DNA from: Isoetes taiwanensis
Taxonomy: Eukaryota > Streptophyta > Lycopodiopsida > Isoetales > Isoetaceae
Direction of reading: 5' to 3'
Assembly: GCA_021234155.1 (NCBI GenBank)
Contig: JAJEKV010000042.1
Coordinates: 979,864-1,043,863 of the forward strand
DNA: 64,000 bases
Of this stretch, positions 2,207 to 49,420 are shown piece by piece. The first letter of the stretch is position 1, and every line of letters starts with the position of its first letter. The notes beneath the pieces were generated by a model that did not search any database, had not been told where the DNA came from, and saw only the letters and a program-made list of their open reading frames with translations. Made by a program: the position numbers and the translations under genes.

Positions 2207-2933
2207 TTCAGATATGCTACTTTTACCTAGTCATAACTTATGTTCTACACGTTTTGCAGTTATCCTCTTATTTTCCAGTTTATATATGTAGACTCATTTT
2301 TTGAGTTCCTTATATCTATCACCCCATCTGACAGACCCATGTCCCTCTTGCAATGCCATAACTAGGTCATTCACGGGTCTCAGAAATGCCCATCCATAAC
2401 ACCAATTCGGTTTCACAGCATGCGCAAGACATGGTTATTATTCACGACTCGCTTATGCTGACACGCATACACTAGTTTCCAGGTTGCAGTGGGAGGTATC
2501 CATCTTCAAACATATCCATCATTTTGGTGAGAGACTCGTCTGGAGGGGGAAAACCGGCCGATAGATAGGCATATCTTTCATCACAGCAGTGTACAACATT
2601 TTGAAAAAATATCTAAGAAGCACAATTTCATTATAATGGGAAAATTTTTAGTAAACTGGAATTTTTTTATTATGGGGGTTGTATAGACCTTATGCAGGGG
2701 TTGTATACACGGTACCAAGACTGTATCATAGACCTTATGCGGGGTTGTATACACGATACAAGATTACCAGATCATAGACCTTATGGGGTTTAGGACACGG
2801 CAAGCACCGTGTATCATACATACATGAATATTTAGAGAACATAATAACACGGTATCATATACCAACTTCCAAACACAATTATAGAGACAGAAGTATGAAC
2901 TATGTATGTCCCTAGTAACCTTCCCCCAGGTTC
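2207..2933. other. Non-coding stretch with a short tandem repeat
   Basis: No gene is visible. At about 2685-2790 a unit built on GACCTTATG..GGGGTTGTATACACG is repeated about three times with divergence. The rest is AT-rich and unremarkable. Confidence 0.5.
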
Positions 2934-3576
2934 CTAACCCCTTCCCCTTCCCCTGCGAGGTCTAACCCATGCATCTGGGTTAGGAGTCAAGAGCTCACGC
3001 TCCTCCCAGCCTGATTCTTCCCACCATATGGGGTACCTAGTCATTAGAAAAAGTAATTCCACAGGATGATACTCACGGAAGAAGAGCGGACCCAACTCCA
3101 CAAAACCGTTGTACACGTTGTAGTACACCCTAATAAGGCCATACATCTGTCCCTTACAAATTTCATGAATGAACTCTGATATGTATGCATCCAGAGAGTG
3201 TGCTAAATATCCAGCACGAAGAAGAGGCCTCAATTCTTTGTAGCATCTCGGCCCGGATAAGGAGGGGTTCAAGCATTCCCCTCATTGCAAGTCTCCTATA
3301 ACATTCAGATGGATTAATTTCCATCAGTGGCTCATGACCACAATCAAATCGCTCCAGAATGAAGTTGATCAACTCCATTGTAAGCTCCTTGGTGGGACTG
3401 TGGCGCAACCTCCACTCCAAGAAATGGTCCCATAGCTCATCCATTCCAGGCCGCAATGTATCGAATGCATGCTTGCGGTGCCTTCGAGGATTGGGTCCAA
3501 TCATTTGCAAAAGCAAGCAAGGATCACCAACGGAGCAAGGAACACGTAGCAGAGCAAGTAGCAAGTTCAAGAGCAA
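2934..3576 (-). pseudogene. Unrecognised broken ORF
   Basis: Two overlapping minus-strand open frames (3163-3576 and 2934-3272, different frames) look like one coding region with a frame break near 3250. The joined translation is fairly rich in Trp, Tyr and Arg and ends in an Arg/Gly-rich tail. I recognise no domain. Its upstream part runs into the minisatellite at 3480-3965, so the true start cannot be placed. It could be the remnant of a mobile-element protein. Coding status is uncertain. Confidence 0.3.
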
Positions 3577-3965
3577 GCAAGAAGATCAAGTAGCAGGGAG
3601 CACGGGAATGAAGTAGCAAGGAACAAGGATCAAGATCAAGTAGCAAGATGCAATGAACAAGGAAGATCAAGTAGCAAGAAGATCAAGGAACACGGAAGAT
3701 CAAGGAGCAAGAAGCAAGGATCAAGATCAAGTAGCAAGGAACAAGATCAAGTAGCAAGATCAAGAGCAAGGAACAAGATCAAGTAGCAAGGAGCACGGAA
3801 TGAAGTAGCAAGGAACAAGGATCAAGATCAAGTAGCAAGAAGCAATGAACAAGGAAGATCAAGTAGCAAGAAGATCAAGGAACAAGGAAGATCAAGTAGC
3901 AAGAAGATCAAGGAACAAGGAAGATGAAGGAGCAAGAAGCAAGGATCAAGATCAAGTAGCAAGGT
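3480..3965. repeat. Minisatellite of GATCAAGTAGCAAG-type units
   Basis: Imperfect units combining AAGATCAAG, GAACAAGG and AGTAGCAAG are repeated over nearly 500 bp, with higher-order copies (one about 130-bp block recurs). It has strong strand asymmetry, with purines on the plus strand. It is non-coding. Confidence 0.8.
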
Positions 3966-4011
3966 GAAAAGTGAGAAGTGAAAACAAGGTAAAAGAATTT
4001 ATAGCTACGAA

Positions 4012-4133
4012 TCCAATAATGTTGAAGTATAATACCAATAATGTTGAAGTATAATACCAATAATCTTGACGATATAATACCAATAATGCTCACGTATAAT
4101 ACCAATAATGCTGAAGTATTATACCAATAATTC
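4012..4133. repeat. 22-23 bp AT-rich tandem repeat
   Basis: About five and a half copies of a unit like CCAATAATGTTGAAGTATAA lie head to tail, with substitutions increasing to the right. Confidence 0.8.
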
Positions 4134-4812
4134 TACAACGACTATAAAAGCAGCTCCATTCGGTAAGTCATTCATCTCCCATGGCTTATAATATTTATGA
4201 AGATCAGTTTGAGACCATTCTTTGCTCCATGAGCTACAATGATATTAATCATTTGCATACATAAAGGTGTTAATTTGGATCCTTACTTACAATCCAAAGC
4301 AGAAGGTCGTGAGTGTGATTGCCCCGGCCTTACTCGTGTTGTGATCCATCTTCTTTGGGTTCCTGAGTGCCATGCCTACGAGCTAAATGCGATCACAATA
4401 GCAGGGATTGATGATGAGTGAATCATCGACTCTATAATGCCATCAATAATATGTGCATCTAAATTATATGTATGCCATCAATAATGTGTGCATCAGATGT
4501 AATGATGTGTATTAAACACCTATTATAAAAGATGTAAGGATGTTAGTATAAGCATAATGGAAGCTAATTGATGTATCGACAACGTATTAATTGTCCAAAA
4601 TGCTTAAGTATTATAGCAAAAGAAATTACATACATGATTATCGAGAACATGGTGAGATTGAGAGCTTTTAGCTAATGCTATGTCCCCCACATGTCAACAA
4701 TGTATTTTGGAATCTGAGCAGTCTTAGGTCTTTTGCCATTTGCATCCCATGCATAATGTATGGCATCTAACTTCTCATACCTTGATGGATCGATGGATTG
4801 GGTCGCTAACGT
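4134..4812. other. Non-coding or unassigned stretch
   Basis: A 60-codon ORF (4239-4421, plus) ends in GIDDE and has no recognisable domain. A short direct repeat (ATGCCATCAATAAT..GTGCATC) occurs near 4438-4495. Nothing else is supported. Confidence 0.3.
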
Positions 4813-6997
4813 TTAGTTAAGCAACCCTGTATAGTCACGACCAAACGGGCATCCACCATGATACATAAATGTGACCATAATTGGTAGACTCGGATCTAGG
4901 ATGGCATCTTCTTCTCGTAAAGCCCAACCACGTTGGAGTTTCATCGCTCTGTGTCGGACTAAAACAAACATACCTTTCGTAACATGTGCATGAGGATCGA
5001 ACTCATCCATAGGCCTTATTTGGGCGCCCATCTGGCTGGCCCACAATACGTAGGCAAAGGTCTTACAAGCACATCGGGCTTCATCGACCTCTCCGGAGTA
5101 AATGCAGCTTGTAGAGGTTCTTGCCTTGTAATGCAACCAAAAGTTATCATTTTGAGGTCGATCCCCGAGATACATCTTCCAAACACACAAGAATCTCCTT
5201 CCAGTAATCCATAGTTGCTTTGTACTGTCGTGCAAACACACTATCTTCTTGATTTTTGCAGAAGGAATTCCATAATGCTATGTACTTGCTTATGCTGTCT
5301 GCCAGGCCAGGGAGATCTTTCAATGTCTTCCTTGGAGGGATATTTTTAGGCACCCCCGTTGGTAACGTTGGCTCACCATTTTCATCCTCCTTCCACATTC
5401 TTATTCCTTTTTCTGGAATCCACTCTTTATGGGTTGGCCGCATCTTATATTGCATAATGGGCCATATCCCATCCATTTTAAATCGGAATAGCAATGGGTC
5501 GGTATGGCCTGTTAGACGTTGGCCTTTATCAGGGATATATCCCTTGACAAAGCCTTTCCAATCTGGAACTTCATCCACAAAATATGGAACAGGAGACTTT
5601 GCATTGCACTTGCTAAACAAGTAAAGCAAATCAGGCAAAGTTAGAGCATCCGATGAACTCATTAACGTCGAAAAGTTCCCGAACAATGCATCAATATCGT
5701 CATGAGTATGCCCAACCATCATGAAGCCAACCTGAATCTCATCGAATACCTTAACACATATCTATTTTTATTTTGACCCGATGCATTATCCAACTGTAAG
5801 TAGAGATTTCGAGGAAGAGGATTGAAGCCTTCTAAGTTGGCACTAGAAGATGAAGGCATCTTCTCTTGTGTCTGCGCTAGCTTATGCTGAAGTGGTCGAG
5901 TATCTTTTAGGGCTTGCATCAATTTGCAATCTGTAGTTCTGCTTCCACACAGATCACCACACTTGTCTTCTTCCGGCAACTCAAGATAGTGTAGGATCCT
6001 AGAAAGTGATCCAACATGAAAGTTTGAGTCATCCTTCCAAAGATCAAGAGAGAAATGGCCATAAGCCCGTCCACCATGACCATGTGTCAATGCTCCTGTC
6101 AAGCTGCTCTTCAAGCGATCTCCTCTCCAAACAGACTTTGCGAGATGGTGACTTCTTGGTGTGAGTGTTTTGACCTGATCCATCTTATCATGTATTATGC
6201 AAAGGTGACTATCAGGCGAACGATGTGATAATGCACGCCAATGCCAATATTGACTCCTACAGGAACGTTGTTCCAACATATGTGCCCGCCGTTGAATTGA
6301 AAGGTTACGCCTCTCCCTTGTATCTTTTGCAATTTCTGCTTGATGACTACACATATGTTACACTTGGAGAATGCTGTATTTTTTGCTATGTTGACGTCTG
6401 GAAACTCCTTCTTCCAAATATTGTAAAAAGAGGGCAAGGTTACACTCTTTCCTGTCAATTCTTCCACCACGGCACCCACTTCCTTATGTATGCTCTTCTT
6501 ATTAAGAATGGAAGGAAGTTTGCGAACATTCTCCCTTATATCATCCTTCCCTTTTTTGCTTCTATGTGGAATGCTCTCCGCATTCTCACTAATGAAGGTA
6601 TCAAGCACACTTTCTGTAGCTAGTGTCACAGATCTAGGCTTCTTAGAGCCTGTATTACCATGCTCTGCCCGTTTTCCACCTAACTCGAACCTCTTCCTCC
6701 AACTATAAAACGTAGACTGAGCAACTCCTAAAGCCACGCGCCATGCGAATTGACAGCACTCCACTCCAGAGACCACTACTTTCGCCTCCGACTGCCCTGT
6801 ATAAGTTACACTCAACACATCAAAAACAAGCGTAATCCTGGCACTGCTTGATTGAGAATAAAATTCTTTTCTTAAGGCACATACTTGCTCTCGGCTCAGT
6901 TTTTTGACACATTCGTCCTTGCAGCATGTTGATTTTAGAGCACTCTTGATTGACTTGGAAGCGCACATCCTCTCCTCCTTCCTATCCCCCTTTGGTT
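4813..6997 (-). pseudogene. DUF7869-type protein, C-terminal part (broken gene)
   Basis: On the minus strand, successive frames (6195-6968, 5719-6354, 5147-5722, 4813-5241) read as one protein with frame breaks near 6340, 5740 and 5170. Landmarks in order are a Cys/Lys-rich start (STCCKDECVKKLSREQV), a helix-turn-helix-like TFYSWRKRFE, FSKCNICVVIKQ, MDQVKTLTPRSH, QLDNASGQNKNRYV and VGHTHDDIDALF. The DN..NKN and GHTHxDID motifs are the signature of the DUF7869 family, which looks like a DDE-nuclease (transposase-like) fold. About a dozen residues expected between NKNRYV and the next helix are missing, so there is also a small deletion. The gene continues upstream on the far side of the 7007-11041 element. 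It is surely inactive as it stands. Function in the family is not established. Confidence 0.7.
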
Positions 6998-7006
6998 CCC
7001 TCCTGA
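6998..7006. repeat. Target-site duplication, left copy
   Basis: CCCTCCTGA here matches CCCTCTTCA at 11042-11050 in seven of nine positions, directly outside the inverted repeats of the 7007-11041 element. Confidence 0.65.
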
Positions 7007-10000
7007 CATTAGGGCGGATTTGGGGTCTGAAAATGGCCTCCTATCAGCTATTCCACGTCATATTTCCGCTCCTTTTTTCCCATGCCACCTAGGATACCAA
7101 AATCTCATCATTACAGATTTACTTGGAATATTCTCCCGGAATAAGGGGGATTGCGCATTCATGGCGCCATATGTATTTAATTCTGTTGGTTGTCAGACAG
7201 GCTGATGCAACATGTGGCGCTTCTAAAAAGCCACTTGCATTATAGCATACCTGCAACTCATGGCGGTGCCTCTTGGTTTATCAGATACCAAGCGTGCGTG
7301 TCACCGATTCTTGGCGCTTATTTTCATTTAGAGGCCATGGCCATACAAGCTTCCGCCTTCCACATTTCAAAATTTGAATGTAGGTTGAAGCTTTGTATCG
7401 GACTTTTCATTTTGAGGCGCTGCGACTGCGCCTTATGGGTGGTTCACATGGAGAAGTTTAGGCCCTCCGGCTGAGTTCTGGCGCGAGTCAGCACTGATTA
7501 AAAAATTCAGCGGTTGCATCAGCTACGCAAGTTGGATCTTGCAAGGGCTGATTTTCCAAAGCAGGGCTGAATTTTTTACCTCAGCCCAAGTTCAGTGAGG
7601 TTTTAAGCCGCCGCTAGATCGGATCCATGTGAACCCAAAGATTAACCGAGATCTTTACTTCATCCCAATACAGGCTTTCCGCCCCCTACAATTCGAAATT
7701 TGAATTTGCTTAATGTATAAAAGCATGGATTGTAGGAGAATGGACTTTTCGATTTCCATATGCACGTTGCAAATTTCAAAAACGAGGTTAGTACGGACGT
7801 TCGGCTCACACGAAGCGAATTGTGCTGGGGCATACAAATTGTACACCTTCATTTCGCGCCGTGCGATCCACGCAGTATGGAAGCTCCAAATGATGTGTGG
7901 ATAAGGATCCAACTGACTCACGAATATGCTCCAGTCTTCAATCGCAAAAAAAGAGGTCTAAAAAATAAGAACTTAGACCTCGACGTGTTGTGTCTTGCAG
8001 GCTCAAAAAGTGTTGACATCTGGGCGGATGGCAGTTTATATCCATTGGATCCGTTGAGTAGCAAGAAACCGTCATATTAGGACGTTTCAAGTTTAGTCCG
8101 ATTTTGTGGTGACGGTAACTCTGGCCTCCTAGGATATTGTGAGAGATTGAGAGAGGATGAAGGCATTCGGAATCGAATACAGTTCCTTGAGATGAGCTGC
8201 TTCCGATAAGGAAGGGGAAATGTCCGTGAAGATGCTAATAAATGACATTATACTTTGCAATGTGAAGGGTTTATACATTCTTGAAGTACAAAGGTTATGG
8301 TGTTTGTGTTTAGATACCGCTAATACAAGAAGGCTTTGACTACCTTTAACAATAGATTCCTTTAAAACTCTATTGCTATTTAAATTATAGCAAAAATGAG
8401 TCTTGAAACTCTTTAAGTAGTAGAAGAACTCTTTGACTAGTTATCCATTTGATGACCATTTTTTAAGAAAATATGATATGTGACATTCTTATATGCAAAC
8501 ATTCATAAAATTTATGAACATTGAAGGTCAAAGCCATCCTTGTTTAAAGAGGATTCGCCTGGTGTGATCCTTGCGTAAAAAAGTAAATAGAAACACAAAT
8601 ATTCAACTTACAACTTAGCGTAAACAAATAGTATTTTAATAAACCAACACTTTATATACTAACACTTTACACTTTAAATAAGATATTTCTTTCTTTCCTT
8701 TTACTTGAAAGCTATTTTTTTTCAAGATGGATCACACCAAGTGAATAATACATATGCAAAAAAAAAGGGACACACTAAATTCGCATGGTGTGATCCACTT
8801 TCTTATTTGTTGTCAAATTAAAATTAAACACAAGTACTCATTCCTATTTGTATCTAAAATGCTTTACCACACTTAAGTACATAAGTCATTATCCCTTTTC
8901 AAAGAGCATATTATTTTTCAAGAAGGATCACACCAAGCGAATAGTACATATGCAACAAAAATGGAACACACTAAATTCGCATCGTGTGATCCACTTTCTT
9001 ATTTGTTGTCAAATTAAAATTAAACACAAGTACCCCTTCTCATTTAATGCTTTACCACCCCAAGTGCATAAAGTTATTAGTCCTTTTCAAAGAGCATATC
9101 TTTTTTTTAAGAAGGATCACATCAAGCATCCTATTTGCATCTAAAATACTTTACCAACTCTAGTAGTACATAAAGTTATTAGCCCTTTTCAAAAAGCAAA
9201 CACTTTATCAATAAATGAGCACGTCACATATCCACACTTAACTTCAAATAAGACACTTCTATTAAAAGATAATCAAAGTAATTTTACTATAGGAAGTCAT
9301 GTTTTTCCAAAAAGATCACACCAAGCGAATTTTGTATAAGCTAAAAGGTTGGAATATACTAAATTCGCATGGTGTGATCCACTTTCTTGTTTGTTGTCAA
9401 TAGATAATAACACCAAGACCCTCATCAATAGTCTCCCATTTGCATATAAAATATGTATTATTCCAAGTTATATTATGTTTTATGAACTAAACTTTTTCAA
9501 AGAGGGTCCCAAAGCAAAATACAAACACATAATCAATAAGCCAACACTTTACCAACAACCAAAGCTTTATTAAATAAGATTTTTATGTTATTTTATCAAA
9601 CCTAACAATGTTTCCATATGTGACACTTTGAGTTAACTGATCCAAAGGCTCATGAAAGCGACATTTTATACAATATGTCTTTGGAGCTTTTGTGTCGTGG
9701 CATTAGTAAACACCTCTAATGGAGCAAATATTTTGTAACTCATTTTTTCAACAACCCTGGATGCACGTCTTATCAAACATTTCTTCATTGCAAGGACACC
9801 ATTCTCATAAGGCTTGCACAATTCGCTTAAACGAGGTCATGGGACGACTTTCAAGCTCGGCTCCCACAATTTTACAACGTAAAACTAGATGCCCATTGCC
9901 CTGAATGTATATCTTGGAAAAGCATGTCTCTTATGTCCATATGTTAGACAACAACGATGCCAGTAATGCTTTTCCCTAGTCCCAAATCCCCGACATCTGA

Positions 10001-11041
10001 TAAATATAGCCCAAAGAAAAATATTTGATTCAGTGAGTGAATATAAATCAAGAAGAGGGAAGAAAAAGAAGCAAGGATCACATGACGCGAAATCTCACTA
10101 CACATTTACAAAGTGCATATGCATTTTCGCATGGTGTGATCCATGTATTATTGAGGGTGCAAATTTGCAAATATCCTCCTCTTCAAACCCCTTCCCCCCC
10201 TCCCTTCCCTTTTTTTTTTGCAATATACTATCCATAGCATTTATTTTGAACCCTATAGTTCTACCTATTCATTGCGTGTATGAATGTCGCCCGTGATGTA
10301 ACTCCATAGTCATCCTTCGTTAAGGATAGCATTTTCACCCACAAGCCTATGGATAGATATCCTTCCACCATCACGCCTTTTATTGTTTTGTAAGTGATGA
10401 ACTGGCTGGAAGCAATGTAGGAGTACTAGGAGCAATGATGGATGCAATTAGAGATCTGGTCGGTCGTTGAATTGTAAGAATGAATGGCGGGGAGCAATAC
10501 GATTTATGGGAAGAGCTGAAAAGTAGGAAAACCGGAAGAATGAAAATTTGGGTAGTAAAAACATGGCATGTAACGTATGTTTGCTTGTCCGCGACATCGT
10601 CCTCGCCGTTGTTGCTTAACTCTATGCTCGCGCCGAAAAAACACGTGACACTATTGGAGACTTGATTCCAAATGAAGAGCGATATGAGAGGATGCACGTA
10701 AGCGGTGCTAATGTGAACAATGGAAATCTTGGTGCCAAAATTTGAAAAGGTGGTTGGTGCATGTGGGCATGTGCACAGTAGGCGGGAAAAGTAGCCATTA
10801 TTTTGGTCCGCGATACGATTTTCGAAAAATGCGGGCCATTAATGTGGTTGCAATGAATGCACAAACATGTCCTATGAAATTTCGCCATGTGGATGCCAAG
10901 TAAGCCTGCTCCTCTTTCTACTTGCCAACTAATACTGACTTTGGAAAAAAATGCGCAAACATCATTGGTCGCGAGAAACATGACGTGGAATTCTGGCATC
11001 CAAGATAAGGGCCATTTTGAGACCCCAAATCCGCCCTAATG
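7007..11041. mobile_element. MULE-like TIR element inserted in the DUF7869 gene
   Basis: The ends are inverted repeats. About 25 bp from CATTAGGGCGGATTTGGGGT is almost perfect, and similarity continues with gaps to a shared CCACGTCA about 55-60 bp in. Flanking 9-bp direct repeats fit Mutator-like elements. Removing the element plus one 9-bp copy joins ...KYTYVKR (upstream side) to EPKGDRKEER (downstream side) in one open frame, which independently supports the boundaries. I see no transposase inside, so it is non-autonomous. Contents: an unrecognised ORF (7760-8080), AT-rich sequence, and a series of ~60-70 bp hairpins at 8.7-10.1 kb. Confidence 0.75.
8729..10142. repeat. Series of GGATCACACCA hairpins inside the MULE
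   Basis: Four imperfect inverted repeats at 8729-8796, 8935-8992, 9313-9380 and 10075-10142 each start with (G)GATCACACCAAGCGAAT or a variant and end with ATTCGCATGGTGTGATCC. Lone halves occur at 8556-8572 and 9115-9127. Sequence between copies is also partly repeated (TTATTTGTTGTCAA, CCTTTTCAAAGAGCATA). These could be nested MITEs or a local amplification of one hairpin. Confidence 0.7.
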
Positions 11042-11933
11042 CCCTCTTCACATATGTATATTTCCTTTTCCTCTTGAATTGCTTCTCAACATCAGCTTCC
11101 AAGCACTCAACTTCTAAGTCATCCTGTTCGAGAGCAGCTCGAGCTTGTAAATGTTGTGAAACTGTCCTACCATCATGAAGCAAAACATCATGGGTCTCCC
11201 AGGTTACTAGACTGTTAGCTATAGGCCTCTCAGCACAAGCATGACATGACCTGATATTTTGGTTTCCCGTTGGATCTATTATGTTACCCACTGAAAGCCC
11301 GACCTTTGATACACCCAAGAACTCATCGTCTATAGCATCCTGAGGATCACTAAAGACTATATTCGCCTCCGAATATTTAGATCCAATGCAAGAATGGAGA
11401 ATGTAGCATGGCAAACCTAGTAGATCTGTTCTGGAGTAGTAGATCGTCTCATCTTTGAGGCTTAAACAACCCGAGACCAAGGCGGGCAGCTAGATTCTCA
11501 TGACCTCCAATCTCCTCTACTATCTCGCGTCTTCTTCATTTGTTCTTTGTGTTGCTTGGTTCACCACGAGTGGCGATTGAAACCGATGTCCGTGAGACTC
11601 TTGGCACGGATGATGGTGGACTACTAGATGAATCCTCTTCTGAAGAGGGCAAATTGAGGGATCTCGAAGACGTATCTTCACTTGAGGGGAACTCATTTTG
11701 TTTTACATCCCTCTTAGGCCACTGAATGAATGTGCCTACTGCCTCACCAATGTTATCTGCCCCTCTGCAGGGGACTGGAAGCTCGGTCGATGGGATCACG
11801 GACTCCGTGACCTCAATAGCTACATTTGAAGGGTCTATTTCCTTCCCATGAAGAGTGGTTCTATTCAAAATATGTCCCCGGGCAACAATAGTCCTTCCGA
11901 CGAATAGGTTGTACAGGGGAAAATTGAACCTGT
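11041..11933 (-). pseudogene. DUF8039-like N-terminal part of the same broken gene
   Basis: Minus strand. A possible acceptor near 11933 opens a frame reading YNLFVGRTIVARGHILN and then GTFIQWPKRDV, the pattern of the DUF8039-type module found beside plant transposon proteins. An Ser/Glu-rich low-complexity segment follows. An in-frame TGA near 11536 is followed by more readable sequence (RRREIVEEIGGHENLAARL), then the frame shifts into 10962-11480, which runs to KYTYVKR at the MULE boundary. This is the upstream half of the gene whose C-terminal half is at 4813-6997. The stop and the shift mean it was already decaying or decayed after the insertion. Exons further upstream are not visible. 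Confidence 0.55.
11042..11050. repeat. Target-site duplication, right copy
   Basis: CCCTCTTCA directly follows the right inverted repeat of the MULE-like element and matches the left copy (6998-7006) with two mismatches. Confidence 0.65.
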
Positions 11934-12001
11934 TTCAATCAAGCAAGTCGACACTTTTTAGAACATATGAAATAGACGAAAAATAAGCAATAAATAAGCG
12001 A

Positions 12002-12320
12002 AAATGGCGCCATTTAGTACAAAAGAATAAATTTTGGTCTAAACTCGGAGCCAAATGGCGCCATTTGGTCGAAACAGTGCACTTGGATCAAATGGCGCCA
12101 TACCTATGGCACATTCATAGGTGTGAATTTGGATCAAATGGCGCCATGGCGCCATTTGATCCAAGTGCACCATTTCGACCAAATGGCGTCATGGCTCCAT
12201 TTGGCTCCAAATTTACATTCCAACCGTGCACCATGTTCAACCGTAAGGCGCTATGGAGCCATTAAGACCAACACACCATAAGGGTGTATTTGGAATAGAA
12301 TGGCGCCACGGGCCATTTGA
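12002..12320. repeat. GGCGCC palindrome cluster upstream of the ParB-like gene
   Basis: Short palindromes AAATGGCGCCATTT occur at 12002-12015 and 12053-12066. A full double form (arms AAATGGCGCC and GGCGCCATTT around a 2-nt centre) lies at 12136-12157. Degenerate doubles are at 12181-12202 and about 12299-12318. The flanks are themselves part-inverted (GGATCAAATGG...CCATTTGATCC). The same palindrome fills both introns of the gene downstream. Confidence 0.85.
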
Positions 12321-12375
12321 TCCAAGTTGGTCACATGGGGCGATTTGGCTTAGCTCCATCACAAAATCTACACGA

Positions 12376-12451
12376 GGTGCCTATGTTATGCATTCTTGCT
12401 CCCATTGCTGTATATGTGTCAATAAGAGCAGGCATGCATAACATGGGCACC
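12376..12451 (+). ncRNA. Candidate microRNA-like hairpin
   Basis: Two 26-nt arms (12376-12401 and 12426-12451) pair with only three differences, around a 24-nt loop. Arm length, near-perfect pairing and lack of bulges fit a plant pre-miRNA or a small MITE hairpin. It does not match a conserved miRNA that I recognise. Expression is unknown. Confidence 0.35.
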
Positions 12452-12639
12452 CCATGCCAACTTTGCAATTGAAACCAAGGTTCATATCCTAGCAAAGATT
12501 CATATCAAAGATTTGAACACGCTTATACACATGGCAAAGAATAGAACGTAATTCATATCGAAAAAGTGGACTTACTTGATATTAGATAGATCCATAGTGG
12601 TATGTCCCGGAGCAAAAAGATGGAACAGAAAATCAAGTT

Positions 12640-12800
12640 GATCCCAGCCAGAAAAGCGCCAAGAAGAAAGCGCCAAGGATTCGGACAAGAAAGCAGCAAA
12701 GAAGGATTCGCTAAGAAGAATTCGCCAAGAAGAAAGCGCCAAGAATCACCTGGGATTTCGTGAGAGCAAGAAGAAAGCTACCGACAAAGACGCATGCGCC
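12640..12800. repeat. GAAGAAAGCGCCAAG short tandem repeats
   Basis: Several imperfect copies of AAGAAAGCGCCAAG / AAGAATTCGCCAAG are strung together. This is a low-complexity, GCGCC-containing stretch upstream of the ParB-like gene. Confidence 0.6.
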
Positions 12801-13149
12801 TTTGCAAAGTTTTCGCCTATGCGCCCTAAGAAAAGAAGCGCGCTTTATGCGAAGCCGCAAAACGGAGACCTAACAGCGGATTCGAAAAGCGCTGAACCGC
12901 GGCAAGAAAAAACGCTCGCGGCCCGTGGCATGGTCGCATTAAGTGTGAGCCGGGCGACATGGAGCTTTAAATGCAAAGTACATTTTTAAAAGCGGACGAT
13001 TCAAATTTGGGACGGTGGTGATCAAATTTCAATTTCTGGCGGAATTTTGACTTTTATGTTAATTTCGGGCGGGCGGGAATTTTGAATTTTATGTTCAAAT
13101 TTGGGCGGGTGGGCATTAGGGCGGGAAATATTCGAATTTCAAATTTCAA

Positions 13150-13315
13150 ATTGTGGCGGGCATGGGCCGCCACGTGCACGGGCTGGCATAGGCGCCTGGA
13201 CCGCCACGGGCATGGGCGGGCATGGGCGGCTGGGCGGGCATGGGCGCCTGGACCGCCACGGGCATGGGCGGGCATGGGCGGCTGGACGGGCATGGGCGCC
13301 TGGCCAGCCACGGGC
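13150..13315. repeat. GC-rich minisatellite (52-bp unit)
   Basis: A unit containing GGCGCCTGGACCGCCACGGG and GGCATGGGCGGGCATGGGCG is repeated about 2.3 times with a 52-bp period. It lies directly upstream of the first exon of the ParB-like gene and gives open but meaningless frames on both strands. Confidence 0.8.
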
Positions 13316-13365
13316 CGTAGTTGGCCGCCTGTGGTACAGCAGACAGGCAGCGCCCAAAGTTTCTT

Positions 13366-16300
13366 ATGCCTAATTGTTTTTCTGAAGCTTCTCATTCGGT
13401 TTTTTCGTTTTCGATTCCAGCTCCTAGCGCCTCGACCTTAGCCGCCAGCGCCCAGCGCCTAAAGCAACCCTTTTTCGTCCTTTTTTTTCCGTGTTTTCTG
13501 GCGCCATTTCCCCACAGTTCAGCGCCTCAACACATCAAGCTACACACGCGTTTTCGGACCAAATTCAAGGAGCTCGAAATAGAAATCGACAATTCTGGAG
13601 CTCCTCAGAATGTGGAGGCAGCAGCTAGCGCACCTCAAGGGACAGGTATGTCATCTACTTGCATTGTTTTGTTTGGGCTAAATGGCGCCATGGCGCCATT
13701 TGGATGCCTGAGTGCACTTTAGGAGTCTTAGCTTACTTTTGGATGCCTGGTAGATTACTCTAGGGTCTTGTTGTTGGCAAATGGCGCCATGGCGCCATTT
13801 GATGTCTATTAGCTTACCATAGGGCCTTGTTGTTGGCAAATGGCGCCATGGCGCCATTTGATGTGTATTAGCTTACCATAGGGCCTTGTTGTTGACAAAT
13901 TGATGTCTATTAGCTTACCATAGGGCCTTGTTGTTGGCAAATGGCGCCATGCTTACCATAGGGCCGCCATGTGCTTATGCACTGGACTCAGATGCAAATG
14001 GCGCCACGACGCCATTTGCCTACCACAACTGATTGTCTGCCTGCTTGTTAAAACCATTTACTGATGCCTCTTTGTTACTGATGCCCCTTGGTTGCAGCTA
14101 TGTTACGTGCGGAAACACAATTTCAATCCGAACAGACTATGATGTTGATAGACAGGTACTGGTGCATGGAAGTAGTGCGGGTGAGCCCCTCTACTGCTAC
14201 AGGCTCGAAAGGAGACTGCAGAAGAGAGCTCTGCCTCCTTATAAGGGAGACAGACCCAGAAACAGCCGGAATTTACCAGCCAGGTATCTTGGTTAACATG
14301 AAGATGGTTGTCAAGAGCGGTCGCGACGATTGGATCCGGGTGGTCTGTGAGGATATGTTGAAGCAGAGAATAATTGTCTACTATGTGGACTGGAAGTTTT
14401 ATGATCCCACTATAATGTCTGCTAGCATTGCAAATACAGCTGGTTCGGCGAAGAAGCAAGGCTGGGCGCTACCGTCGTACAACTTGAGGGGCTTTATGAT
14501 TCTTCGCAATCGGATGAACGAGTCGAAAAACTCTCCTTCATTCGTTGTCAAGGCATTAGCCCAGCAGAAACTACCCGCCATTGTGGACATGGCCTGGCTA
14601 AAAACTGTTAGCAAGAAGAAGACAAGACAAACTACTAAGGAGACACCTGTAGCCGACAAAGACTCCTCATCTTCTACTGAGGATGTCGGGCAGGAAACTG
14701 AAGGAAAGGCGGCGGGCAAGAGGAAAGTTAAGAGAAAGGATCACAAAGATCCAGATAAGGAAAAGAAGGAAAAGAAGCAAGCGAAGGAAAAGGAAGAGAA
14801 GGAAGAGAGGAAGAGAAGGAAGAGAAAGAAAAGAAAGAAAAGAAAGAAAAGAAGGAAAAGAAAAGGGAAAGAAAACAAAAGGATAGGGAAGGCAAGGGGC
14901 AGAAGGAAGGAAAGGCGAGACAGGAAAAGGAGGGACAGGAAGTGGAGACAGAGGAAATTGATGGGAAAAAGAAGAAGCACAGACTGGAGACCTCTGAGAA
15001 GGAGAGGACACCTAAAAAACAAAGGAGAGCGACTCGGACTCCAAGTCCTGCTGGAAGTCCTAGAAGTGGTGGTGAACCTCCGAGCCCAAGGCATAGCCAG
15101 GAACCTGCGGACACACCGACCAAAAAAGTCCCCATTAAGAAGCCAGAGCCAAAGAAGCTCACATTAAGAATAGCTCAGCACTTGCTAGAGGTGCCTGCAA
15201 ATCTTAAGGTGGAAAGGTCAGAAGAGGAAAAGACGGCAGAGAATACACTGAATAAAATTTACGATCACTGGCATCTGTTTCCTCTGGGTGTCACATTTAC
15301 AAAAAAAATAGATGTGTTCAAACTATATCAAGGGCCAGCAAATCTGACATCTAGACCAAGGAATATGGAGCACGTCAAAACGATAGTGGAGTCTTTTCAG
15401 AGAGACCCACATCCAGTGTTTACTCCCGCTGATGTGATTCCATTCAATCCCCTCACAAACAAACTGGTCGCTTGGAAAACCGAGGATGACCTCATGGGGA
15501 TGCACTATTATATAGTGAATGGCAATCATTCAGTTATGGCTGCTCAGCTTGTATGTAGAAGACTCGGCACAGCAAAGTCCCAAGAGCAAATGTCAAAGAT
15601 TTATCTTCAACGGAATTGCCGAGTGTTATCTGGCACAGTCAACGAACAGGAATGCCTGCAGCTCAGTTGTGAAGTCAATGATATCACTGCGAAGACTATT
15701 TTCAAAGAGCCCTTCATTGATAACATAACCCACCTGCGGCAGCAATATGCTCTATGCGGGAAGCCTGATCCATCGGGACGCGGGCAGTCACGCTCAGAAC
15801 CATACAAGGTACATATTGTAATTGTTGGCAAGATTAGCAAATGGCGCCGCGGCGCCATTTAGTGATTAAATGGCGCCATGGCGCCATTTGCTCATTAAAT
15901 GGCGCCACGGCGCCATTTCTTCACTAAATGGCGCCGCGGCGCCATTTGCTCATTAAATGTCATTCAAGGCTAACTTCTTGTTGTTTCCAGCGTTATCTGG
16001 CTTTGGCTGAAGTTACCATGCGTGGTAAGCATCCAAAAGATTTCAACCAGTGGGTCTTCATGCCAGAGGATATTTTTCAGTTATTCATGTCCCTATGGAA
16101 CTTGTGGAAATCTTGCAAGCTGCAAGATAACAAGGGACAAACTATTACTTGTAACTGGGCAAAAGATCATGACTACTTCAGTCAGACCTACCTGAGGTGC
16201 ATGAGGGGTCTCGACTACGAAGACTGTCGGGTTTTGTTCCAGGAAGTGTTGGATGGGAAGACCTTCGTCAAGGTCACCAGTGATTATACAGGTAAGCAAT

Positions 16301-17603
16301 TCTTCAAGGCAAGGGCAAAGACACTAAGATCCATATCTTTCTTGAAGAAGGAGATTTTTGAATACGTGAAGGATAATTTTCCGAGGAAGTTCAAATCCTT
16401 CACTGATCTCAGTGCTGCCGTGCCGGGCTTCGAGGATACCGACCTCATTTCCATGGCCACCTTGCATAGTAAGTGGGTTGAAACTGGAGTGGGCAAGGAA
16501 GGCGTTTTCGGTAACGTGCCACCAGCCTTGGCAAGATTCATACGCAATCTTTGTCTTGCGCAGAGAGGATATGAAGACTTCCATTGCGGTTGAACTACCG
16601 CATGCCGGGGGCAAGTTGTTTGCACTCCCTGTACAAAGATCCTTGATTGTCCCGGACACTAGAGGCATATTTCCAATGTGGGACAAAACCACACTATCTA
16701 ATTTCTTTAATATACCAGAAAAAGAACACCACGGTGATTCTTTTTCGGATAGTGGTCTTTGCAAGGCCAGAGCATAACTTTTTGATTTCATCTGTGTTGG
16801 ATGATCTGGATTCCAGATCCAGAGTTTTTATTGGCACGTATGAGAACGAATACAAAAATCCGGCTCCTCCAGGAGTTCAGGAGGTCCATGCACTAGTGTA
16901 CGCCACAAAAATTCAGGCCACTGCAGGTGATCCTGTCGATGTAATTGACCTCAAATTCCCCTTCAACGATCATCCTCAAGAACTGCCACCAGTTCCTGTG
17001 CCTAACGATGAAGACGAAGAGGTGGAGACCGAGGCTATGGCAGGAAAGCTCTGCAACAGCAGATTCAGGTACAGCTGGCAAGGCTTGCCAGGGGACATAA
17101 TCATGAGAAACCGGCTGGGGCCTGCCACATGCTCCTACCTCGTGCAGAAAATGGTACCACCAGGAACAGGGGTGTTTGATTACTTCTCCTGTGGTTCTTT
17201 TGGCCGGGCTTCATTGATGAATAAGAGATTCTGCATTGTGTTCGAAAGTGACCCGGTTAAGCAGGAGTGCCTAAGGGGGATTCTTGATAGGCTTGACCGC
17301 CTACTGAATCCTATCATCGCAGCACTTCCTACAGAGACAAAAGGTGCTGTTGTTGAAGAAGTTGTAGATCCACCTAATCCAGAGATGCCCGAAGCTCCAC
17401 CCGATGTGGACTATGATGGGATCAAGAACACACAATTCGATCTGGACTTTCTTAGTGATCCCAATTTCACTGCCACAGCGGTCGAGAGCTTTCAGGGAGA
17501 TCCTATGATTGCTTCTTCTAGCCATGGCCTTGGCAATACGGAACCTGATCCTGATGTGGAACCTGATCCAGATGCGGAACCTGATCCTGATGCAGAACCC
17601 TGA
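13366..17603 (+). CDS. ParB-like / methyltransferase-like gene (three exons, frame breaks)
   Basis: Exon 1 (13366-13645) joins exon 2 (14098-15808) and exon 3 (15991-17603) through GT-AG introns, and both junctions are in frame. Order of parts: a short N-terminal exon; a ~200-residue domain I do not recognise; a long Lys/Glu-rich tract; a ParB/sulfiredoxin-like domain ending in YYIVNGNHSVMAAQLV (the GxHR-like box); a helical linker; and a DNA-methyltransferase-like domain with GTGVFDYFSCGSFGRASL and IVFESDPVKQE at its motif I. The tail is acidic EPDPDAEP repeats. The expected DPPY catalytic motif seems replaced by PDTR, and motif I lacks the GxG glycines, so activity is doubtful. Frame shifts occur in the purine tract near 14800, near 16500 and at an A-run near 16715. 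These are either decay or sequencing errors. ParB-methyltransferase pairs are known from phages and plasmids; a eukaryotic copy with introns suggests old transfer or a mobile element. The start codon is a guess. Confidence 0.55.
13646..14097 (+). repeat. Intron 1 with palindrome tandem array
   Basis: This GT-AG intron (donor GTATGT, acceptor TTGCAG) holds full palindromes at 13680-13701, 13779-13800, 13838-13859 and a variant at 13996-14017, plus a half copy near 13939. The middle part is a tandem repeat with a 59-bp period (GATGTCTATTAGCTTACCAT, then GGGCCTTGTTGTTGGC, then the palindrome). One unit has lost its palindrome cleanly, leaving only GACAAATTGATG. Confidence 0.85.
15809..15990 (+). 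repeat. Intron 2 with four palindromes at exact 29-bp spacing
   Basis: This 182-nt GT-AG intron contains four 22-bp palindromes at 15839-15860, 15868-15889, 15897-15918 and 15926-15947. Each has arms AAATGGCGCC and GGCGCCATTT around a 2-nt centre that varies (GC, AT, AC, GC). Spacers are 7 nt (AGTGATT, GCTCATT, CTTCACT). The arms are invariant. Confidence 0.95.
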
Positions 17604-17930
17604 ATTTTGTGTGATTGTAATTTAAATTGTACAATAATACTTTTGTAAACAGACTCTCTCTTTCGAGTCCTTGCCTGTTGTGGCAAATTTTTTGATATGC
17701 AAATCTATGAATTTGGAATTTTTAACTACTTTTGTGATGTTGTGTTTCTTTAGCTTCTTTATATGCACTGTTAGAATTTTTAATGGCGCCAATAAATGAC
17801 GTTTTAGAGGCATATTTTTTCTAAATGACGCCATAATTGCTCAAAAAATTGGCATAAAATGGACTGAAAAGGATTTTCGTTCCTAATTGGAATCACGAAA
17901 TTTCTCATTTTAATGAAATTGTGCTTTAAG
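17604..17930. other. 3' flank of the ParB-like gene
   Basis: AT-rich 3' flank with possible poly(A) signals (TACAATAATA near 17629). It keeps degenerate half palindromes (AATGGCGCCAA near 17784, AAATGACGCCAT near 17822), so the palindrome-bearing region ends at about 17.85 kb. Confidence 0.5.
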
Positions 17931-20243: not shown

Positions 20244-20986
20244 ATGCACACCTAGGCAGAATTACGAACAGAAAAAATTTGCTGAACGGAGGAGAACAGA
20301 GGACCGGAACGGCTATGGCAGAAACTTTTCCCTTGAATAGAGGACCGGATTGGCTATGGCAGAAACTTTTTCCTTGAATGGAGGGCCGGATTGGCTATGG
20401 CAGAAACCTTTCCCTTGAATGGAGGACCGGATTGGCTATGGCAGAAACTTTTCCCTTGAATGGCTATGCCTAAAAAAAAATTGGGTGTCTGGCTGTTAGA
20501 GCTTTGATTTGCAGGTCGGAACGCTTCAGAAATGCCATTGCTACCCTAGATCTACGCTTCTATCATTACCAAAATGCTTCTATCATCGCCATCGGAGCTT
20601 CTAATGCATGCATATAACAGGGAAAAAATGCAGGAACATAAAATCGAAGGCATGAAATGTCACAGAAAAGAAACGAAAGTTAAGAAAGAGATTCGCAAAG
20701 AAACCTCTGGCTTTCCTAAATGAAGCTCTCCAGTTGCTCTCTGGCTCTCTGCTATTCAGACTGCTCTACTTCAAACATCCAGCAAGAGCATCACTTTGGT
20801 TTGCTCTCCTTAGCTATGCTGGCTTCAGAAGAAGAGATTTGAAGGAAGGGTCGCCAGAAGAGCTGATCCGCCATAGTCCGCCATAGCCACAAAGTACTGG
20901 CGGCGTCGCTATACGCAGGCGGAGAGAGAATTGTGGGGGATAAAATCAGCAGAAAAATGCAGTAATTCTGCCTAGGTGTGCATTAC
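20241..20986. mobile_element. 746-bp TIR element with perfect 25-bp inverted ends
   Basis: The first and last 25 bp (20241-20265 and 20962-20986) are perfect reverse complements, built on AATGCACACCTAGGCAGAAT. A clear target duplication is not visible because the left end overlaps the neighbouring MITE flank. Inside is a tandem repeat and no transposase, so it is non-autonomous. Confidence 0.7.
20296..20470. repeat. ~41-51 bp tandem repeat in the TIR element
   Basis: Four near-identical units contain GACCGGATTGGCTATGGCAG and AAACTTTTCCCTTGAATGGA. They sit inside the 20241-20986 element. Confidence 0.8.
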
Positions 20987-40875: not shown

Positions 40876-42127
40876 TCAATTATTATGACCAATCCTCAGG
40901 ATATGAGGAGGGATACAATCCTTGCATCTGATTGTGTACTCTCTTCTATATCCTACCTTCTTGTCATCCACCAGGAAATAAAATTCAGAAACTCCAGTTA
41001 GAGACTCTAATAACCTTCTACATTCAACTAGTGTCCATACTTCTTCCACATTCAATATATGAATACAATCATTCTCCATATGCACTTTCAATTCAATTGA
41101 AGGAGCCCTAATGCAATGTTCCTCCACTGCTTTCCAACACAATTGACCATTTTCTCGCTGCCTCTTTTTTCTTTGAACAAAGAAATTGCAGTACAAGGTT
41201 TGTTTTGGTAACCTATACCTGAAATAAATTGTTTCATATTATGTACTTGAAAACCAGCAATCACAACAAAAAACCTCATGGTTACCTGAATGTGCAACTG
41301 CTCGAGTCAACCTCACAAACAGTTGTTTGTCCACCTGTCTCATGGATCCGTTTTCTCCATTCTCCATGGAAAATATGCTCGAGGGAGGTTTCACTAACAC
41401 CTTGAAAGGTGTATGTCTGTGGTGCAACCTTTAACGTCTGTACATCCTTAAACAAGAATGCAAATATGCTTATTGGGACAAAGGCTTTTGCAGCAGCTCG
41501 AACCCCACCTCTTTCTGTCAGTAATTTTTGTACTTCTCTTGCTAATAAGCATCGAAAGGCCATAACAATATGCATATCACTAATGCCTTTAGAGATCTGA
41601 GCTAGTGTAGGTGAATCTACCAATGTCAACTTACCCAGCTTGCCATCTGATTTCGTGTAATGGTATTTGTGGAACCAAACACCTTGATCCCTAAGAGTAG
41701 ACAAGGAAATGTCAGAAAATAATAATTGCCCAATCGCATGATGATGGACCTCCAACACGCTTGTGATGCTCTGTGCTGGAACTTTATTCTTGAACTCAGA
41801 GGAACACAGACAATTCAGTTCAAGCTTTGGAAATGTAGGACTCTTTGAAATATCCTCCTTCATCATATCTTGAGGTCCATACGCATGTGCAACAACAATC
41901 TCATCTACACTTTTACGACCTTGACTAATCACAAATCCAAGAACACGCGCTTTCCAATGTGCAGTCAAATGATTGAGCTTTCGTTTTTTTACTGCATGGT
42001 CACCACGCTGTGCAGGCCTCATAGTCACCCAAGAACCCACTGAAATATTTAAATCGATCCATTCTCCATTCTCATCCTTTGCATTCCTAAGTGTAATTTG
42101 ACTAATTTCAGATCGCTTAGAAGCCAT
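40876..42127 (-). CDS. Unknown two-exon gene, 394 aa
   Basis: Exon 1 (41286-42127) and exon 2 (40876-41218) are joined by a 67-nt intron with GTAACC donor and TTTATTTCAG acceptor, and the joined frame is open from ATG to TGA. The product starts MASKRSEISQITLRNAKDEN. It has a possible small-barrel segment (DLNISVGSWVTMRPAQRGDH), a middle part with ALLAREV-like helices, and a C-terminal part with CNFFVQRKKRQRENGQLCW and EVWTLVECRRLLESLTGV. I recognise no family. No stops or shifts interrupt it, unlike nearly all neighbours, so it may be functional or a recent copy. The DIRS-order element is inserted about 240 bp upstream of its start codon and could affect its promoter. It could also be a second gene of a mobile element. 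Confidence 0.6.
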
Positions 42128-42363
42128 TCTTATCTCTGCAAAACATCAATACATTATTCAATTATAAAACCACTGAACATAATACAATAGAGCCAAAAGA
42201 ACTTACAATTTCTCGTCAACGACTGCCAACTCATAACCTCAAGAGAGCAATCTGCGAAATATTATGAAAATTCTCAATCATTCTATTTTAGATCAAAATA
42301 AAAATATTACAAATCTCTATAATCTTACCTGAACGGAAGACACCCAATGAACCAAGAATGCCA
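42128..42363. other. Upstream region of the 394-aa gene
   Basis: AT-rich short interval between the start codon of the minus-strand gene and the left end of the DIRS-order element. It may hold a 5' non-coding exon. Confidence 0.3.
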
Positions 42364-42515
42364 CGGTTCTATTGCGATAGCAATAGAACCGTCATTCCTT
42401 GGATGGGGACGCCCCATCTCCTCGCCCTCCTACTTATAGATCAGTTTTCCACATTATTGGCCATCGGCGTTCTCTTGGGCTTTGCTTTGGTCGCTTGCAC
42501 CTCTACCTAGCTTCC
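42364..42515 (+). repeat. A1 split direct repeat
   Basis: It matches A2 (49421-49569) over about 150 bp with a few small differences. It begins with a perfect 12-bp inverted repeat (CGGTTCTATTGC, loop GATA, GCAATAGAACCG). Confidence 0.9.
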
Positions 42516-43800
42516 CAGCACCCCACGCCAGCCAGAGCCATCCACACCAAGACAAGCTTCATCCACACCAAGACGAGCTTGTGGTGGTCGCCCCTGATCG
42601 CTCTTCATCCCTACCTGCTTTCCACGTCCGGTTGCTGCATCCTCTAAGGTAAGTCTGTTATTTTCTTTACGGTTTTAATCTCTCCCTTTGCTTGAATCCA
42701 TGTGCCACGCTCTGTGGATGCTGCGAGTAAGTGAGTTTCGACAGCGGTCTTGGTTAGTCTCGTGGTGCTTTATCTGGTTTTTATGCATTGAACACGTTTC
42801 TGTTATGTGGTTTCTTTCTCTGTCGGTTTATTCTTCGGTTTATTCTGGTTGTTTTTTGTTGGTTTGATCGGTTTCCTCTGGTTGTTTTTGTTGGTTTGAT
42901 CGGCCCTCAGCCCGCTTGGGCAAACTTGCCCCGGTTTGCCGTCTGCCGGATCGATTGGCGTGGGGCATCAACCCGTCTGTTTTTGTCCGTCGGCATAAAT
43001 CGGCCGGGGGCGTTATGGCTTCCACCGGATCCTTCCGTTAAGCTCCTCCTTTTTCCTATGTTCGGCCGATTATCCCTATATCGTGTTTGTTGGTTCAATT
43101 ACTTGGGCCTGCATTTTTGGTAAATCCCTTTGGTTTGATCGCCCACGGCTTTGCTTGAGCAAGATCGCCCCGGTTTGCCGTCTGCGGATTGATTGGCGGT
43201 GGGGCATCGAGCCGGATCGGCCTGGTCCGATCGGCTGGTTCGGTGCTAGGCGTAGAGATTTAATCAATTTCTTCCGGGTGTACCATAGATAGGCGGTTCG
43301 TTCTTTTTTCTCCCGCCGGGCCGATTCTTCAAGATAAATTTTCTTCAATACAGGCCGATTACGTTGTTCTCTTTTCTATTATCGGCGATTCTCTACCTCT
43401 GTTCTTTTCGGCCCCCGCTTTATGGCTCTGATCACCACCTCAGGTTTCGACCCCCTTTTTTGTTTGTTTTACGGGTTACGTTTTTATTGTTTCAGGCACG
43501 CCGCCGCCCCGCCTCCGCCTTCTTTTAATGGGGGATACGGGTTCGATCCCCCGTTTTTTCTGGGGATGCCCGGCCGGGTTCTCTGGCGTTAGCTCCTCTT
43601 TTTTTGTCGTTGGGCGTTGCCTATCTTCTCCTCTTCTCTCAAGTTCACTATCTTCTCCTCTTCTCTCAAGTTTGTTTTGAGTTTTTTCGGGTTTCAAGGT
43701 TCGTTGGATAGCTCTATGATTTTGTGATTACCCCTTGTTCCTAGGGGTTCTTTATGATGTTTGTTCGGTAGTAGTCGTCCGTTTTTTGTTATATGGGCTC

Positions 43801-44420
43801 TAGTTTGCTCTCTCCTTGGGCATATGATTGGTTATAGCGACCCCATGATTATTTTATTTTGCTCTATAAATTTGGTATTTTGCTTGCATATTTCCGGTTT
43901 ATGGTCATTAGTATCACCTTTAGGATCTTTCATATGATTGCTTTCACCTTTAGTTTGCTCTCTCCTTGGGCATATGATTGGTTATAACGACCCCATGGTT
44001 GTTTTATTTTTGCTCTATAAATTTGGTATTTTGCTTGCATATTTCCAGGTTTATGGTCATTGTTTCCCTAGTATCACTTTTAGGATCGTCATATGATTGC
44101 TTTCACCTTTAGTTTGCTCTCTCCTTGGGCATATGATTGGTTATAACAACCCCATGGTTATTTTAATTTTTGCTCTATAAATTTGATAGTTTGCTTGCAT
44201 ATGTCCGGTTTATGGTCATTGTTTCCCCAGCATCACCTTTAGGATCTCTTCATATGATTGCTTTCACCTTTAGTTTGATATCTCCTTGGGCATATGATTG
44301 GTTATAACGTCACTATGGTTATTTTATTTTTTGCTCTATAAATTTGGTATTTTGCCCGCATATTTCGGTTTTATGGTCATTGTTTCCCCAGTATCACCTT
44401 TTGGATCTTTCATATCGTCT
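43801..44420. repeat. ~150-160 bp minisatellite in the DIRS element leader
   Basis: Four copies start near 43801, 43951, 44110 and 44270. Each contains CTCCTTGGGCATATGATTGG and GCTCTATAAATTTGGTATTT. They lie between A1 and the gag region. Confidence 0.85.
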
Positions 44421-45199
44421 AGGGTCACCTCGACTATATTTTCCCTTGCATTTTTTCTAGGCTGCTAAGGTTTTGTCTCGTGGTCATTAGTTGTCTTTCC
44501 CCTCAGGTGTGTTGTGACGATATCTACGTTTGTGTTGTTGTGGTTCCGTGCATCGTCCATCCTTTTTATTTTTCTCTCCCCATGCGTTGTATGTCTTTTA
44601 TCGTTTGTTGTTTGTCTCGTTCTAATGCGTGCGACTTGCTGTTACTAGACTTTTTCTGACATGGCGGATCGGGCTCTCCGGCACATCTCGGGCTTCTTCA
44701 CGAGCCCGGCCGGTGAAGCGGGTTGCTATCGATGCCGCCCCTTCTACCCCTTTGTCCGGCGTTACGCGCCATTTGCGATTTCTATTGCACCTGAGGTGCC
44801 CTCCATACACTCCTCTGCTGCTTCTGTTGAACCTGCCATGCCCGCGATCCCTCCTGTCAGATGCACGAGCATGACTTCTCACTTGGGTTCGGCCGGTCCA
44901 TCTCGGGTTGTCTCTTCTGTTTCTTTTGCCCCGATTTCGCCCCGTTTTTTCTCACGGCCCCGGCCGAGGTCCTTCTATAGGGCTTAACCATTCCTTGCCG
45001 ACCGCGGGCCCATCCATTCCTTCTCCATCTTTGGATATGGTGCCTCGGTGCTGCGCAGACCCTCCGACTTCGGATAGCGCAGATCTGAGCCGCCGATCCT
45101 CACCCCGGCCGACGCTTACGTGCATGGCGATTGAAGTGCTTAGCCCGGGAGGTTTGAGAGCGGGCGTCTCGGTGCGTTCCCAACTTTAAGAGGGAATCA

Positions 45200-46012: not shown

Positions 46013-46399
46013 TATTCGTGGAATTTTTTTCTCCACGGGTTAAAGGTTGCATGTGGGTTATATTTTTTATGCTTGAGGTTTTAGGTTTGAGCTTGTGTTG
46101 GTTTAACTTCGGCGTCTTGCGGGGTTATAGGCTTGCATGGTGCTACATGGATCCGTTGCCTACTTGGTTTGATGTTTTCCATTTGTTGCTAGGTTGTTTA
46201 CTTACGGTTTGTGGCCTCTTTTGAGAATGTGCTCCGTTCACATCGGTCATCCCTCATCTTGGCATCGACCCCTCCCGGCCGGATGGTTTGGCTTCTTTGC
46301 TATAGTCTGGACCGCCTCCATCGTCCCTTCCTTTTGGCAATCCATTTGCTCCTCACAGCAGGTGTTGAGTTGGATCTGATTTGGTTATCGCCTTCCTTG

Positions 46400-49360: not shown

Positions 49361-49378
49361 GTAGGTTCCTCTTCTTTC

Positions 49379-49415: not shown

Positions 49416-49420
49416 ACCCG

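Follow-up and report, generated by a model that had tools for sequence, protein, structure and literature searches.

The 64,000-nt stretch of Isoetes taiwanensis (aquatic quillwort) DNA analyzed here (hereafter the window) carries at positions 13366-17603 a decayed copy of the accessory gene of an abundant DNA transposon family. An earlier note had described this interval as a plant gene joining a ParB-like domain to a methyltransferase-like domain, but the interval delimits just one gene of a larger element located at 2618-17926 (Table 1). The left half of this element contains a transposase gene on the minus strand, from which the accessory gene is divergently oriented. The proposal of a single plant gene was not borne out, the locus being a multi-copy transposon with terminal inverted repeats (TIRs) and target-site duplications (TSDs). 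The suggestion of a mobile module was supported, with common ends, TIRs, 4-bp TSDs, a DUF7869 gene and many copies all in evidence.

An abundant DUF7869 transposon

The ends of the element are sharp, with TIRs of 25 bp, and aligned copies present AAGCACAATTTCATTAWAATG inverted at either end. Four-bp TSDs flank three copies: the window copy (TAAG/TAAG), copy B (AATC/AATC) and copy C (AAAT/AAAT). Without the nested insertion listed in Table 1, the window element is ~11.3 kb long, and the uninterrupted copies B and C measure 11,628 bp and 11,716 bp, respectively. Searching the genome sequence (1,658,258,908 bases) with the last 282 residues of the accessory product as query yielded at least 138 scored copies among 2,538 candidates, while the ParB-like region used as query yielded 150 scored copies among 4,973 candidates. 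The family therefore does not represent a chance sequence, and its copy number lies in the hundreds to thousands.

These observations dispose of several other origins for the locus. A single-copy or domesticated host gene is ruled out by copy number, TIRs and TSDs, and an endogenous virus by the lack of any viral gene seen and of any relative of the ParB-like region in viral contigs. Recent bacterial transfer or contamination is likewise ruled out by the introns, the eukaryotic transposon context, the many copies and the lack of relatives in genome contigs.

The transposase assignment follows from matches to PF25273 (E 9e-21 and 5e-13 for pieces in the window, 4e-34 for copy B); helix-turn-helix-like matches toward its N-terminal side are weak. 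A genome search for DUF7869 returned 9,910 first-look candidates, many of them with long open frames; DUF7869 transposons thus look highly abundant in this genome, and some of them young. Sola elements produce 4-bp target duplications. Judged without a Sola reference sequence, from the 4-bp TSDs, the size and a published algal parallel discussed below, the element appears most like the Sola-1 type of cut-and-paste transposon; the shared traits are the 4-bp TSDs, the large size and an opposite-strand ParB-methyltransferase gene, and the measurements made here are of the TIR sequence and the DUF7869 label.

Table 1. Features of the window transposon and of its accessory gene (window coordinates).
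Feature	Position	Strand	Basis
Whole DNA transposon, including nested ~4-kb insertion	2618..17926	.	End points common to other copies, flanks unlike
Target-site duplication TAAG	left 2614..2617, right 17927-17930	+	4-bp
Left terminal inverted repeat AAGCACAATTTCATTATAATGGGAA	2618..2642	+	23/25 positions equal to inverted right end
Small open frame, 225 aa in copy B	3163..3585	-	Conserved in copy B
Transposase gene remnant, DUF7869 (PF25273); helix-turn-helix-like stretch toward N-terminal side	5147..7040	-	Profile match
Nested ~4-kb insertion, ends inverted (CATTAGGGCGGATTTGGGGTCT...)	7003..11041	.	Not in other copies
Further coding remnants upstream of transposase, cut off from it by nested insertion	10962..11934	-	Open frames kept in copy B
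AAATGGCGC palindromes/half-sites between the two divergent genes	12002..12157	.	Motif count
Exon 1; the least secure of the three, possibly in part leader	13366..13645	+	Frame and donor site
Palindrome array, intron 1	13680..14005	.	Motif count
Exon 2: N-terminal region, Lys/Glu-rich linker, ParB-like region	14098..15808	+	Open in L023
ParB-like region; contains box YYIVNGNHSVMAAQLV	15128..15808	+	Alignment A1; profile match to L065
Four 22-bp palindromes AAATGGCGC-N4-GCGCCATTT, 29-bp spacing, most of intron 2	15839..15947	.	Motif count
Exon 3: helical region and beta-class methyltransferase-like domain	15991..17603	+	Open in L021-L024
Motif IV position, DTRG in place of DPPY	16655..16666	+	Alignment A2; no [DNS]PP[YFW] there in any member
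Motif I region VFDYFSCGSFGRASL; no FxGxG left, and a loop shorter by one residue than that of canonical family	17172..17216	+	Alignment
Right terminal inverted repeat	17902..17926	-	Same terminal position in 7/7 copies

A degenerate methyltransferase-like accessory protein

The three-exon structure put forward in the earlier note stands in part. Both splice junctions (13645/14098 and 15808/15991) keep the reading frame, have GT/AG borders and recur in sibling copies, but the window copy is not in frame throughout. A +14-nt indel near 14793 interrupts its exon 2, and clusters of indels, near 16548-16596 and near 16718-16745, interrupt its exon 3; the stop-to-stop frames shift at each of these places. 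The window copy is therefore a pseudogene. Long open frames persist in siblings, with 581 aa in exon 2 and 564 aa in exon 3 of copy L023, and 532 and 531 aa, respectively, in L062. The accessory protein is under purifying selection, with dN/dS of about 0.1-0.3: copies A and D yield 0.115 in the ParB-like region and 0.27 in the methyltransferase-like region, and comparison with L034 and L036, from more distant sub-families in which synonymous sites are near saturation, yields ~0.1.

The two sequence landmarks reported previously are present, the ParB-type box YYIVNGNHSVMAAQLV being encoded at 15506-15553 and the methyltransferase motif I region (VFDYFSCGSFGRASL...FESD) beginning at 17172. Motif IV of the methyltransferase-like domain reads DTRG, DARQ or DLRA across members of the window family, and motif I reads FSCGS or FSGGA. 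No window-family member examined retains motif IV or FxGxG and, because this holds across sub-families that are only ~45-65% identical in the methyltransferase-like region, motif loss is an inherited state rather than decay of the window copy. The protein of the window family is probably catalytically dead.

Support for the methyltransferase-like character of this domain comes in part from the sibling copies. Four of the seven sibling members in the window-family alignment (A2) match the DNA methyltransferase family phrog_3008 (best E 3e-4), four of the six PHROG families matched by A2 members are DNA methyltransferases, and one sibling member matches PF01555 (E 1.2e-3). A Pfam search of the window copy itself returned no significant match, to PF01555 or otherwise, and a PDB search with the methyltransferase-like region placed RsrI, a beta-class enzyme, first (E 0.42), the alignment falling at motif I.

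An intact-looking sister family and paired palindrome arrays

A second, canonical family of the same kind of transposon is present, and abundant, in the genome. Searching with PF01555 identified at least 150 matches above the curated cut-off and 1,444 candidates. The four canonical copies that were read (L065-L068) have ADLPYGF as motif IV and VLDAFSGSGTT as motif I. The methyltransferase region of L065 matches PF01555 (E 1.1e-17) and phrog_67 (E 2.6e-25), and a profile of the four copies matches CcrM (E 1e-9); this is an unmistakable N6/N4 methyltransferase and looks intact. Against viral contigs, the canonical methyltransferase gave three weak matches, all of them to phage-like contigs. The region upstream of the L065 methyltransferase contains YVLGGNHSFKARR. 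A ParB-like exon lies upstream of the methyltransferase on the same strand in 43/43 close pairs (1.6-2.5 kb apart), and the methyltransferase is divergent from a DUF7869 gene in 20/20 close pairs (3.1-4.5 kb); shift controls returned 0 in both cases. Since gene order and the divergent DUF7869 gene hold in these close pairs, the canonical family is the same kind of DUF7869 transposon as the window element.

Comparison of the two families links their proteins. In single hhalign comparisons, the ParB-like region of the window family (alignment A1) matched that of L065 with E 2.7e-5 (reversed control 0.75), and the methyltransferase-like region (A2) matched the canonical methyltransferase alignment (A3) with E 4.5e-4 (reversed control 0.27), collinearly and in the permuted order with motif IV before motif I. 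The ParB-like and methyltransferase-like character of the window family is therefore supported indirectly, since both regions align in order to the canonical family. The domain architecture claimed in the earlier note thus stands by way of the sibling copies and the canonical paralogue, but the PF02195 and PF01555 HMM searches of the window copy matched neither domain.

The pairing of ParB with DNA methyltransferase in phages, named in the earlier note, could also be confirmed: phage sequence L071 encodes at 2488-3699 a 403-aa protein with matches to PF02195 (E 5.5e-6) and PF01555 (E 1.2e-28). Two actinobacteriophage "DNA methylases" (L154 and L157) considered for the ParB comparison were dropped, both being without ParB. 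Such phage and bacterial ParB_N + N6_N4_Mtase fusions resemble the accessory protein in having ParB followed by a beta-class methyltransferase with motif IV before motif I, and the canonical plant family matches the L071 methyltransferase with E 1e-7. In contrast to the plant transposons, L071 has no introns or transposase and its motifs are active, and the window family has no direct match to it.

The window element also contains dense arrays of short palindromes. All 24 exact occurrences of AAATGGCGCC in the window fall within the element, at 12002-15947 (0.12 expected), where they form 22-bp palindromes of the form AAATGGCGC-N4-GCGCCATTT. Copies A-D have these arrays too, and related arrays are found in L061-L064, whose ParB-like regions are only ~53-60% identical to that of the window. 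The palindrome arms are conserved and the 4-bp centre is variable, with 17 different centres among the 50 sites listed, which suits recognition by a dimer. Genome-wide, 2,385 exact 22-mers of this form were identified (reversed control 0). A different palindrome characterizes the canonical family: in L066, CAAAGTGTATTCCGGAATACACTTTG is repeated in tandem at ~42-bp spacing in the intron upstream of the methyltransferase exon, and the genome contains 3,039 sites of the form AAGTGTATTC-N2-GAATACACTT (reversed control 0), of which those listed at C23:66875-69589 lie 1-4 kb from a canonical methyltransferase match at C23:65562. Each family hence has its own palindrome array, providing candidate cognate sites. 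The fact that both families pair a ParB-like/methyltransferase-like gene with their own palindromes around or inside that gene suggests that each element is recognized, in a family-specific way, by a protein that it encodes.

Several further features of the window were recorded. A second repeat theme, composed of GGGCGGG...ATTCAAATTT and 52-bp GGGCATGGGCGG units, lies upstream of the accessory gene at 13020-13335 and is also found in distant sub-families (L061 1111-1346 and L063 1354-1508). The small open frame on the minus strand at 3163..3585 is close to GGGGTTGTATA repeats at the left end and gave no convincing match in a Pfam search, and the remnants at 10962..11934 gave no Pfam match. The nested insertion has imperfect inverted ends of ~39 bp and contains tandem-like repeats. 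Outside the transposon, a 41-bp unit (GAATAGAGGACCGGATTGGCTATGGCAGAAACTTTTCCCTT) is repeated in tandem in at least four copies at 20294-20498, and an 8-kb stretch (42000-50000) shows strong strand asymmetry, with AT skew of -0.32 to -0.44. This stretch encompasses a zinc-knuckle-like frame (45464-46012) and a tyrosine-recombinase-like open frame (48336-49157; PF00589, E 7e-4, under cut-off), and resembles a DIRS/Ngaro-type element or another kind of tyrosine-recombinase element.

A putative palindrome-binding factor and competing explanations

The reading that we favor, with moderate confidence, is that the accessory protein binds the palindromes of its own element and marks or protects element copies without methylating DNA. 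The protein, whose linker is rich in lysine, combines a ParB-like region with a methyltransferase-like domain of the beta class (N6/N4) from which motif IV and the S-adenosylmethionine (SAM)-loop motif have been lost, and would bind, probably as a dimer, to AAATGGCGC-N4-GCGCCATTT between the two genes and in the accessory-gene introns. The outcome may be control of the divergent promoters, a counteracting of host silencing in the manner of VANC, or both. Because usable methyltransferase motifs are missing from the window clade, the function most likely left to the protein is recognition of the element with no methylation of it, and we infer that the protein most likely serves as a regulatory or anti-silencing factor with sequence specificity. 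The earlier suggestion of a possible DNA-binding protein is thereby supported as a guess, with binding itself deduced from the features above.

The analogy is with VANC of the Arabidopsis VANDAL transposons, which binds motifs specific to its element, densely arrayed in non-coding regions, and causes loss of DNA methylation (PMC5735166). Both systems have an element-encoded accessory protein and dense arrays of short motifs in non-coding parts that are unlike between related families. The VANDAL motifs occur in one orientation, whereas those of Isoetes are palindromes, and the comparison is one of analogy, with no homology claimed.

A number of observations weigh against this reading. Direct profile comparison of A1 with phage ParB domains was not significant (E 0.2-0.3), and PF02195 had zero matches in the window copy, its siblings or the whole genome, so that the label ParB-like, as applied to the window family, is based on the architecture and the paralogue. 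Pfam, NCBIfam and PDB, searched directly with the ParB-like region or the window copy, returned nothing significant, the ParB-like region of L065 reached at best E 0.026 against a ParB-like PHROG, and the hhalign values linking the families are those of single comparisons. Single-sequence AlphaFold2 models of the accessory product were poor (pLDDT 37 and 35). The family member with the most divergent motif I (L060) contains no GGCGCC in the 7 kb read. Furthermore, the palindromes could serve the transposase instead, or act as RNA hairpins.

Plant DNA transposons commonly require internal or subterminal repeats bound by their own proteins. The palindromes might accordingly be sites at which the DUF7869 transposase, alone or together with the accessory protein, acts in transposition, making the accessory protein a transposition helper rather than an epigenetic factor. 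Besides this general requirement, the single GGCGCC sites that copies A-D carry within ~170 bp of their right ends and the weak helix-turn-helix-like matches of the transposase would fit such a role. We nonetheless regard it as unlikely, since the arrays are mainly intergenic and intronic and far from the left end, where one GGCGCC is found (5023), instead of being subterminal at both ends.

A role for the palindromes as RNA appears less probable still. A 9-bp stem with a 4-nt variable loop could affect splicing or feed small-RNA pathways from within introns 1 and 2, where arrays sit, and conserved arms around a variable centre fit a hairpin loop as well as they fit a dimer site. Against this, arrays also occur at 12002-12157, in a stretch that precedes both genes and belongs to none of the predicted coding exons, and the 2-nt centre of the sister-family palindrome would make a poor loop.

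Active self-methylation, with the accessory protein continuing to methylate adenine or cytosine in the element that encodes it, would fit the intact DLPY and FSGSG motifs of the sister family and was proposed for the algal ParB-methyltransferase proteins, which offer a precedent (PMC12477816). For the window family it is very improbable, given the loss of motif IV and FxGxG in every member examined and a motif I loop that is one residue shorter. Finally, a chance resemblance of domains in an unrelated, transposon-specific protein would account for the lack of a significant Pfam match in the window copy and for the non-significant phage ParB comparison, but we give it hardly any weight, as both regions align, in the same order and with negative reversed controls, to an indisputable ParB-like/beta-class methyltransferase paralogue in the same transposon type, and there are matches to DNA methyltransferase families among the sibling copies.

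Recognition of the element by its own accessory protein, without methylation, can be placed in a broader evolutionary scheme, which we advance tentatively and with less confidence than the favored reading. Plant transposons may have recast a phage-type ParB-methyltransferase into a family of sequence-specific factors, each with a palindromic array of its own, that mark or protect the element, one clade having given up methylation and retaining recognition only, so that writer and reader-only versions would coexist in one genome.

Parts of this arrangement are already known, though only since recently, from algae, in which ParB + N4/N6-methyltransferase accessory genes are found opposite the transposase. 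The Ectocarpus element Sola1-1_Ec32 encodes a 1104-aa accessory protein with ParB-like and N4/N6 DNA methyltransferase domains on the opposite strand to the transposase, and the same paper cites similar proteins for green and red algal transposons (PMC12477816). It has been suggested that these proteins bind the transposon that encodes them and modify it (PMC12477816), and the literature on them, as far as found, reports no tested function. The window element and its sister family have in common with Sola1-1_Ec32 a single gene that encodes both domains and lies on the strand opposite to the transposase of a large DNA transposon. By description, the basis of this comparison, they differ in their vascular-plant host, high copy number and palindrome arrays, and in the absence of catalytic motifs from the window clade. 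Active cytosine-5 methyltransferases are borne by retrotransposons of dinoflagellates and charophytes (PMC5890265), likewise associating a DNA methyltransferase with a mobile element, but these are C5-cytosine enzymes of retrotransposons, in contrast to the beta-class amino-methyltransferase-like domain, degenerate in the window family, of a DNA transposon. In the open-licence literature, we found no paper on lycophyte occurrence, co-existing clades or palindrome arrays, and searches pairing ParB with plant transposons led to nothing other than the Ectocarpus paper. As far as searched, the occurrence in a vascular plant at high copy number, the degenerate clade beside an intact-looking one and the candidate cognate palindromes are thus new.

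The co-occurrence of intact-looking and degenerate forms, each with a candidate palindromic target, makes the function of these accessory proteins testable. The matter is relevant to the ways in which transposons escape or rewire silencing by the host, and to whether N6-methyladenine and N4-methylcytosine (6mA/4mC) occur in land plants at all.

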